IMG/VR virus record: IMGVR_UViG_3300050821_000418
Location: 1-37,164 of that record
Source: a virus
Length of the DNA stretch: 37,164 nt
Strand: one strand, 5' to 3'
Shown here one piece after another: positions 22,559 through 34,805 of this stretch. The position numbers were made by a program, and so were the translations under genes. Numbering within the stretch: position 1 is the stretch's first letter; every line of letters begins with the position of its first letter. The notes under the pieces were generated by a model that was given only the letters and a program-made list of their open reading frames with translations, did no database searches and had not been told where the DNA came from.

Positions 22559-25003
22559 ATGAATCAATTCAATAACATTCCGCTTGAACTGCGGTTATTG
22601 CCACAATGGATAGTATGGGATAAAGATAAAGTTCCCTGCAATCCATTTACTAAGCAACCGGCTAATGTAAATGATCCTGAAACTTGGACAACTTTTGAAA
22701 ATTGTTATATCAATATTGATAATTATAACGGTATTGGTTTCGTATTTACTGATAATGATCCTTATTTCGGTATTGATCTTGATGACACGCAAGGCGACCA
22801 AATAGCATTAGACCGACAAATTAAAATTTATCGCGAATTTGATAGCTATTCTGAGATTTCACCATCGGGTAAAGGACTGCATATAATTGGTAAAGGAACG
22901 GTTCCGCAAGGTCGTCGTCGTTCCCACATAGAGATATATTCCAGTCAACGCTATTTTACAATGACTGGAAATGTATATCCTTCCGGTCAGGCGAAGCCAA
23001 TTGCAGAACGTCAAAGCATGTTAATGCAATTGTGGAAACAAATGGGAGCGGGAGCGCCAGCTACTTATTTGTATAAAGGGGATGATAATGAACGATTTAC
23101 AGATAATGAAATTATTGAGCAAGGAAGAAAAGCAGTTAATGGAGATAAATTCGAAATATTGTTATCTGGAAAATGGCAGGATAATTATCCGTCTCAATCC
23201 GAAGCAGACTTTGCATTCATTGACATTATTGCTTTTTATACGCAAAATAGGAAACAGATTGAACGTATCTATCGAAATTCTAATCTCGGACAAACCGATA
23301 AAAAGCGACAAAGAAAAGACTATATTACATGGATGATTAACAAATCATTCGATAGAATGTTACCACCGCTTGACTTTGATGGATTTAAAATAGCGTTAGA
23401 AAGTAAGATAAATGAACAGCATAGAAATAATAATAATAGCAGTACCAGTAATAATAGTGCTTCTAATGTTTGCATTCAAATAGCCGATTTGTCATTGAAC
23501 CATATAGCCGGTTCGTCCAATGGTAAGACGGCGGATTTTGATTCCGCTAATAATGGTTCGAGTCCATTACCGGCTTCCACTAGCGTAGCTCAATTGGTAG
23601 AGCCCGTGGCTCATAACCGCTCAGATGCAAGTTCGAATCTTGCCGCTAGTACCATTATTTTGCCACCGGGACTTCTCGGAGAAATCGCCCAATTTATCTA
23701 TGCTGCCGCTCCGCGTCCTGTACCTGAAATCGCATTAGCTGCTGCCATAGGCTTAATGGCGGGTGTCACGGGACGTGCTTACAACATATCAGGCACGGGA
23801 CTTAATCAGTACGTGCTTTTATTAGCTGCCACGGGTTCGGGCAAGGAAGCAATGGCGCTCGGCATAGATCGCCTAATGAATACAATTCGGCTTCAAGTTC
23901 CAACATCAACACACTTTATTGGTCCTTCTGAAATTGCTTCTGGGCAAGCACTCATTAAACATCTTTCAAAAACTTCACAATGCTTTGTTAGTATTCTTGG
24001 TGAATTTGGATTGCGACTTGAAGCTATGTCAAGTCCTACTGCTAATTCAGCCGAAAAAGCTTTAAAGCGAATGCTACTTGATCTTTACAATAAATCCGGT
24101 CATGGACAAATGTTTCGACCGTCTATCTTTGCTGATAGTGATAAAAATATTGCAACAACCGAAAGTCCCGCTTTTTCTATTCTTGGTGAAAGCACACCGG
24201 AACGGTTTTATGGTGCCTTAAATGAAGATATGATTAGCGAAGGATTATTACCTCGCTTTATGTTAATTGAATACAATGGCCCTAGACCGCCATTATCAGA
24301 ATTTCATTTGCAAGCCAAACCTTCATTTGAATTAATAGAACGGTTTGCTTCGCTAGTTGCTTATTGCGAAAGCACAATGCATCAGAAGAAAATAATTAAT
24401 ATTAATTGTGACCAACGATCGGATGGAATGTTAAGGAAGTTTGATAAATTTTGTGATCAACAAATCAATGGAACAAATAAGGAAGTGCTTAGACAACTTT
24501 GGAACCGTGCCCACATTAAAGCTTTGAAGATATCCGGCTTAATGGCTGTTGGATGTAACATGCTTGCTCCGATTGTTATCCCACAATATGTTGATATTGC
24601 AATTAACATGGTGCAGTCGGATATTAGAGCTTTATCGGCTAAGTTTGAGGCCGGTGAAATTGGATTGTCAACTAATGAGTCCAAACAGCTTAAAGAATTA
24701 TTGCGTATAATTAGAGAATTTGTTGTTAAGGATTGGAGTGAAATATTAAAGTATTTTGATAATGAAAAATTACATAAGGAGAAGATAATTCCTTATGCAT
24801 ATTTAAGTCGTCGCTTGATTGCAACATCGGTTTTTCGTACTGATAAGGTTGGAGCTACAAACGCAATTAAAAGAACTATACAAATTATGATTGAAAGTGA
24901 TAAGATAAGAGAGATTGGTAAGCAAGAATTGGCGTCTAAGTTCGGTACAACTCAAAGATGTTTTATCGTGAGCAATCCAGCACAATTATTTGAAAAATTA
25001 TAA
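22559..25003 (+). CDS. PrimPol-like + DUF3987 ATPase replication protein with embedded tRNAs
   Basis: The N-terminal domain (about 1-270) is an archaeo-eukaryotic-type primase/polymerase fold: QWIVWDKDKVPCNPFTKQPA, the metal site GIDLDD (D73, D75), SPSGKGLHI (H108) and HIEIYSSQRYFTMTG, then a helix bundle (KRQRKDYITWMINKSF) as in NrS-1-like polymerases. An Asn/Ser-rich linker (285-370) follows. The C-terminal DUF3987 region has Walker A ATGSGKE (424-430) and a Walker B-like VSILGEFG (E481) and probably is the helicase-type ATPase. The protein likely primes and unwinds DNA. Two complete tRNA genes (23506-23654) form residues 316-366 of the linker without breaking the frame. It ends six bases inside the opposing endonuclease VII gene. 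Confidence 0.85.
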   Translation: MNQFNNIPLELRLLPQWIVWDKDKVPCNPFTKQPANVNDPETWTTFENCYINIDNYNGIGFVFTDNDPYFGIDLDDTQGDQIALDRQIKIYREFDSYSEISPSGKGLHIIGKGTVPQGRRRSHIEIYSSQRYFTMTGNVYPSGQAKPIAERQSMLMQLWKQMGAGAPATYLYKGDDNERFTDNEIIEQGRKAVNGDKFEILLSGKWQDNYPSQSEADFAFIDIIAFYTQNRKQIERIYRNSNLGQTDKKRQRKDYITWMINKSFDRMLPPLDFDGFKIALESKINEQHRNNNNSSTSNNSASNVCIQIADLSLNHIAGSSNGKTADFDSANNGSSPLPASTSVAQLVEPVAHNRSDASSNLAASTIILPPGLLGEIAQFIYAAAPRPVPEIALAAAIGLMAGVTGRAYNISGTGLNQYVLLLAATGSGKEAMALGIDRLMNTIRLQVPTSTHFIGPSEIASGQALIKHLSKTSQCFVSILGEFGLRLEAMSSPTANSAEKALKRMLLDLYNKSGHGQMFRPSIFADSDKNIATTESPAFSILGESTPERFYGALNEDMISEGLLPRFMLIEYNGPRPPLSEFHLQAKPSFELIERFASLVAYCESTMHQKKIININCDQRSDGMLRKFDKFCDQQINGTNKEVLRQLWNRAHIKALKISGLMAVGCNMLAPIVIPQYVDIAINMVQSDIRALSAKFEAGEIGLSTNESKQLKELLRIIREFVVKDWSEILKYFDNEKLHKEKIIPYAYLSRRLIATSVFRTDKVGATNAIKRTIQIMIESDKIREIGKQELASKFGTTQRCFIVSNPAQLFEKL
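23506..23579 (+). tRNA. tRNA-Gln (UUG), inside the PrimPol-DUF3987 ORF
   Basis: All parts are present: acceptor AGCCGGT/ACCGGCT (7 perfect pairs), D arm GTC/GAC with a GG loop, anticodon stem GCGGA/TCCGC with loop TTTTGAT (anticodon TTG at 23538-23540), T arm AATGG-TTCGAGT-CCATT, discriminator T and an encoded CCA. It lies in sense orientation in the linker region of a long ORF. It would read CAA, the main Gln codon in these genes. The final A is shared with the next tRNA. Confidence 0.92.
23579..23654 (+). tRNA. tRNA-Met (CAU) (or tRNA-Ile2), inside the same ORF
   Basis: Acceptor ACTAGCG/CGCTAGT (7 perfect pairs), D arm GCTC/GAGC with AATTGGTA loop, anticodon loop CTCATAA (CAT at 23612-23614), T arm GCAAG-TTCGAAT-CTTGC, discriminator A and encoded CCA. 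The anticodon stem has four pairs plus a C-T mismatch at its base. Overall it looks like elongator tRNA-Met; with lysidine at position 34 it would read AUA as Ile. Its first base is the last A of the tRNA-Gln CCA, so the pair is fused with no spacer. Confidence 0.9.
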
Positions 25004-34728: not shown

Positions 34729-34805
34729 GCGCTCGTATGCTAATCGGTAACGCAAAGAAACTTAAAATTTCTTGTTTCTCAGTTCAAATCTGAGCGAGCG
34801 CACCA
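34729..34805 (+). tRNA. tRNA with UAA anticodon (Leu, class I shape)
   Basis: Acceptor GCGCTCG/CGAGCGC, D arm with AATCGGTAA loop (three good pairs), anticodon stem AGAAA/TTTCT with loop CTTAAAA (TAA at 34763-34765), T arm CTCAG-TTCAAAT-CTGAG, discriminator A and encoded CCA. It should read UUA, the most used Leu codon here. The variable loop is only five bases, whereas bacterial tRNA-Leu normally has a long arm, so its charging identity is uncertain. Confidence 0.88.

Follow-up and report, generated by a model that had tools for sequence, protein, structure and literature searches.

Can one strand of a phage replication gene serve both as protein-coding sequence and as a pair of complete tRNA genes? 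The question is raised by the viral record IMGVR_UViG_3300050821_000418, positions 1–37,164 of which were analysed (hereafter the window) and in which two tRNA genes lie in sense orientation inside a long open reading frame. The features concerned are these.

22559–25003, + strand: primase-helicase ORF of 814 aa, with an NrS-1-type PrimPol, an HBD (residues 213–265), a linker and a DUF3987/MCM-like AAA+ ATPase (PHROG_3022, PF22763, PDB profiles, Foldseek, DUF3987)
23438–23650, + strand: predicted disordered interdomain linker, residues 294–364, containing the tRNAs (AlphaFold pLDDT below 50; linker variable among homologues)
23506–23579, + strand: tRNA-Gln(UUG) (ARAGORN; RF00005, 58.8 bits; covariation with 13 embedded homologues)
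23579–23654, + strand: tRNA with a CAU anticodon, elongator Met or Ile2 (ARAGORN; RF00005, 60.5 bits; covariation with 14 embedded homologues; reading phase)
34729–34805, + strand: tRNA-Leu(UAA), intergenic (ARAGORN)

The PHROG_3022 profile ('DNA primase') covers residues 2–801 of the 814-aa product (E 5e-226), PF22763 marks the HBD as being of the NrS-1 type, and PDB profiles match the primase chains 7ola, 6k9a and 6a9w, covering only the N-terminal third. In a Foldseek search of the predicted model, the N-terminal half resembled the NrS-1 primase and MCM-family helicases were among the further matches; DUF3987 was detected in 24 of 43 homologues. A sequence-only reading of this DNA had described one continuous ORF without a stop codon, with the tRNAs placed in an interdomain linker, and both points stand. 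Positions 22559–25003 form a single frame, open throughout the tRNA pair (residues 316–366), and in the AlphaFold model (mean pLDDT 85, from a 43-sequence alignment) residues 294–364 alone fall below 50, and these hold nearly all of the tRNA-coded segment. Both domains flanking the linker are continuous and conserved across homologues.

Of the three tRNAs that ARAGORN found in the window, two lie inside the primase-helicase ORF, and an Rfam search of the window agreed with it on this pair, both members of which far exceed the RF00005 cut-off of 29 bits; the earlier worry that their folding might fall below threshold is thereby answered. The acceptor stems are fully paired (7/7 each) and CCA is encoded in both, as originally described. 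A detail can be added: the two tRNAs share base 23579, the A with which the Gln CCA ends and the CAU tRNA begins. RNase P cleavage at 23579 would leave tRNA-Gln ending in CC, an end that the CCA-adding enzyme would mend. The anticodon stem of the CAU tRNA has a single unpaired position, C27–U43. This tRNA had been labelled tRNA-Met; it may be a lysidine-type tRNA-Ile2 instead. When embedded CAU tRNAs are compared with those of E. coli, 45–56 positions match metT and 43–62 match ileX, with a mixed picture between phages. Rfam detected no intron or other non-tRNA RNA family at gathering score in the primase-helicase gene, where tRNA alone reaches this score, and a self-splicing intron carrying the tRNAs is not supported. 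By cloverleaf (paired stems, TTC loop and anticodon), compensatory stem change and CCA, we regard the pair as RF00005 tRNA genes whose products are predicted to be processed and charged.

BLAST of the window tRNA block against phages gave no matches, and neither an exact-peptide scan with the window protein nor an exact-DNA scan with the tRNA T-arm revealed a near relative in IMG/VR. Among the best 80 IMG/VR homologues chosen by protein similarity alone, 8 further phages carry a tRNA inside the primase gene. A second route combined a pattern scan of IMG/VR for a T-arm and CCA adjoining the helicase motif, with the frame left unconstrained, and further similarity scans; the pattern scan supplied about half of the cases, so that frequencies in the set are biased upward. 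In total, the arrangement occurs in 21 distinct uncultured phages (the window and 20 further IMG/VR phages) with 32 embedded tRNAs, namely 14 Gln(UUG), 16 CAU, 1 Leu(UAA) and 1 doubtful Tyr. A 22nd case is incomplete, reaching the end of its contig stretch, and one candidate (L211) was discarded as a random pattern match. With 20 further contigs sharing the arrangement, an assembly or sequencing error, which the sequence-only reading had considered, fails as an explanation.

All embedded tRNAs lie on the sense strand between two motifs, D-x-D-G and P-P-G-L-L-G-E, or variants close to these. Both orders, Gln-CAU and CAU-Gln, are seen. Rfam scores of the linker tRNAs are about 56–72 bits. The ORF is open through every tRNA in or adjoining the primase gene, and there were no broken-frame cases. 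Two members of the set are unusual. One phage (L248, 2448–2524, + strand) has an embedded 77-nt CAU tRNA whose D arm (CGCCAAGTGGTTTAAGGC) is atypical and which differs greatly from the other embedded CAU tRNAs. Another (L013, 3838–3915, + strand) has, within a frame that is intact, a Tyr-like tRNA that lacks CCA and whose anticodon stem is poor, where its sister L007 has CAU and Gln tRNAs; it is perhaps a decaying embedded tRNA.

The tRNA reading of this DNA appears to be under selection, judging from the aligned sequences. Standard pairs fill 98.5% of stem cells in the alignment of 13 embedded Gln tRNAs and 99.3% in that of 14 embedded CAU tRNAs, with two-sided change in 18/21 and 15/21 pairs, respectively. 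Compensatory change affects all four stems, across strongly diverged sequences. None of 500 shuffled controls equalled the observed values, and the signal was lost when pairing partners were slid by 1–3 columns. CCA is encoded in 30 of the 31 tRNAs of 20 phages and also in the 32nd tRNA.

The protein reading appears to be selected too. The 149-nt tRNA block in the window can be read without a stop in one phase only, and it is the phase in use, which begins at base 2 of tRNA-Gln and at base 1 of the CAU tRNA, where it is the sole stop-free phase. Most other blocks likewise have one stop-free phase of three, and the used phase proved free of stops in all 20 phages tested and in the 21st; the joint probability for the 20 loci is 1.1e-9 assuming independence, a value that understates the true one because the sequences are related. 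The spacer between two tRNAs is 2 mod 3 in every Gln-CAU case and 1 mod 3 in every CAU-Gln case, and CAU tRNAs of 75, 76 and 77 nt are each read in their only open phase. As a yardstick, no phase of the 77-nt E. coli tRNA-Met is open. For Gln tRNAs in antisense, 1.1 of 3 phases would be expected to be open, yet 14 of 14 were observed in sense; antisense CAU tRNAs are rarely open (0.13 of 3 phases), which makes orientation weak evidence for these.

What distinguishes the site at the protein level? The model and the homologues indicate that it is a tolerant, disordered linker. The sequence-only reading had asked whether homologues lack the tRNA segment; there are such homologues, and these have ordinary linkers. 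Linker lengths overlap between the two groups (36–93 aa with tRNA, 28–70 aa without), and in several phages (L008, L037 and L108) the tRNA makes up almost the entire linker of 36–44 aa; linkers without a tRNA have a median length of 47 aa. L008 has a tRNA linker where L067 has an unrelated one; both linkers keep the frame, and their flanks are 87% and 81% identical in DNA. The same kind of in-frame exchange for an ordinary linker separates L110 from L131 and L125. The linkers of seven tRNA-less relatives contained no vestigial tRNAs at E<=1.

With the linker columns left out of the alignment, the tree places 19 of the first 20 primases with tRNAs in a single 28-member clade that has a support of 97. 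L248 also belongs to this clade, and the tree requires at least nine gains or losses. The primase with tRNA-Leu (L027) sits on a separate deep branch, so different tRNAs probably entered the linker site on at least two occasions. Nine of the 28 members of the main clade have no tRNAs, which are therefore dispensable. The proportion of 19/28 is not a frequency estimate because the pattern scan enriched tRNA-bearing members; the similarity-only scan gave 8/80.

Elsewhere in these phages, Leu(UAA), Thr(UGU), Pro(UGG) and Arg(UCU) tRNAs are intergenic, and many related records with embedded tRNAs also have a separate intergenic Leu(UAA) tRNA. The primase linker is the only place where Gln and CAU tRNAs occur in the related records examined. 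Since the other tRNAs of these genomes are intergenic, embedding is specific to the primase linker and is not a general habit; where ORFs span other tRNAs, in L205 and L209, they look like ordinary genes extended upstream. In the window, CAA makes up 83% of Gln codons and AUA 26% of Ile codons, and TTA is the top Leu codon. The embedded tRNAs would suit these AT-rich codons of the phage itself (AUA if the CAU tRNA is Ile2). The E. coli metT operon (L191, 931–1634, – strand) combines Met, Leu and Gln tRNAs, the amino-acid species embedded in the phage linkers, and is a possible type of source cassette. The window contains a further RNA-family match, to the Rhizobiales sRNA Atu_At1 (RF02496; 14919–15028, – strand), which scores 87 bits where the cut-off is 60 and is flanked by the polymerase processivity gene and a small ORF. 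It is absent from 23 related phage records and hints at an alphaproteobacterial host or at a phage origin of the Atu_At1 sRNA.

How, then, might both readings be used? RNase P cleavage severs a coding sequence, and a translating ribosome unfolds a tRNA, so one molecule cannot serve both fates together; the mutual exclusion proposed by the sequence-only reading is sound as logic. What the sequences establish is that both genes are present, that the arrangement is conserved, that tRNA structure and reading phase are maintained, and that the site is a tolerant, disordered linker. We infer that tRNAs mature from the primase transcript, that full-length protein is made and that the two are balanced. 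The likely account, in our judgement, is that the linker is a dual-use segment in which one RNA has alternative fates, being translated as linker or excised as tRNA. A single strand would encode one or two tRNAs along with 25–50 residues of flexible linker in one stop-free phase. Ribosomes reading through this segment of the primase operon transcript would produce full-length primase-helicase; where the segment is free of ribosomes, because the message is untranslated or late in its life, it would fold, and host RNase P and 3'-end processing would release tRNAs able to read AT-rich codons. Such a partition is the simplest account, with messages being read yielding primase-helicase and unread messages or decay intermediates yielding tRNAs. 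It comes at a cost, as tRNA excision destroys a replication-gene mRNA and leaves an upstream fragment with no stop codon, and this cost is not explained by a merely tolerant site.

A rival account is that excision is a programmed RNA switch that deliberately cuts the message at the domain boundary while supplying tRNAs, coupling tRNA supply to the level of replication protein; it would either yield separate domain products or reduce the full-length protein at a particular time. The cut sites are predicted to coincide with the boundary between two folded domains, different tRNAs have come to occupy the site, among them the independent Leu case (L027), and the confinement of Gln and CAU tRNAs to the linker, with other tRNAs only intergenic in the related records examined, would also fit. 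However, the suggestion that one gene is thereby split into two products finds no support, as no stop precedes the tRNAs and no Shine-Dalgarno (SD) sequence with a start codon follows them in the 20 loci examined, where the sole weak AGGA (in L140) adjoins a conserved internal codon. Moreover, the tRNAs have been lost in 9 of 28 clade members with no visible compensation, and the tolerance of a disordered linker also accounts for the site. We consider a programmed switch unlikely.

Another rival is that separate short transcripts, started from a promoter inside the primase-coding part, give rise to the tRNAs and largely spare the primase mRNA. Promoter-like sites do lie upstream of the tRNAs, for example at 23220–23248 (TTGACA-17-CAAAAT), but 15 such sites are present against 16.4 expected by chance, and full-length transcripts would still contain cleavable tRNAs; we find this explanation quite improbable. 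It is very doubtful that the inserts have lost tRNA function and persist only as linker-coding DNA. The ill-fitting Tyr-like tRNA of L013, which has no CCA in its intact frame, and the close relatives entirely without tRNAs would be in keeping with such a loss, but decay would hit stems first, and compensatory change is pervasive and CCA encoded across diverged sequences. Finally, that the long ORF is an accident, whether of two genes separated by tRNAs or of assembly or sequencing, is scarcely credible: both domain families also occur apart and no published example of such embedding turned up, yet 21 separate contigs are all open, usually in the one possible phase, tRNA-less homologues are single genes, unsplit at the linker where the sequence-only reading had wondered whether they might always be divided, and a second gene has no start signal.

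If the linker is indeed a dual-use segment, it would represent a conserved instance in which complete tRNA genes double as same-strand coding sequence midway through a core gene. The arrangement poses a directly testable question, namely how one RNA is divided between the ribosome and tRNA-processing enzymes, and suggests that a disordered linker can act as a docking site for RNA genes. There is also a practical consequence, in that annotation pipelines may drop the tRNA or the ORF where both overlap.

Among known systems, the same gene with the same domain order and a similar neighbourhood is found in the Septimatrevirus-type primase/helicase (PHROG_3022), for example that of Pseudomonas phages vB_PaeS_SCUT-S4 and Kakheti25, with about 49% identity over the whole protein; there, however, an ordinary linker of about 47 aa contains no tRNA. 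No tRNA lay under the match in cultured-phage homologues among the matches listed (459–512 matching records, all below 60% identity). In Pseudomonas phage PSV3 (L001, L002) the primase is split at short repeated stretches within the gene, with no tRNA, which we take to be GenBank assembly artefacts, and a tRNA in Aeromonas phage Avpx2 is intergenic and unrelated. The primase-polymerases of NrS-1 and BFK20 gp43 (6k9a, 6a9w and, for BFK20 gp43, 7ola) share PrimPol and HBD by profile, and NrS-1 also by fold; we know of no tRNA inside their genes. Codon-supplementing tRNA genes of phages likewise match AT-rich codons, and the same genomes carry such tRNAs for Leu, Thr, Pro and Arg, but those are intergenic, whereas the tRNAs described here lie wholly within the coding sequence of a replication gene, in frame and in sense. 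The sequence-only reading knew of no precedent, and none for tRNA genes embedded in mid-ORF emerged from searches of the open-access literature. More generally, mitochondrial tRNA genes overlap protein genes mostly at gene ends, and tmRNA is a single chimeric RNA; in both, as here, one stretch of RNA has tRNA and coding roles, but neither places complete tRNAs in the middle of an ORF as a protein linker. Each component of the primase-linker arrangement is known, and their dual-coding combination appears to be new.
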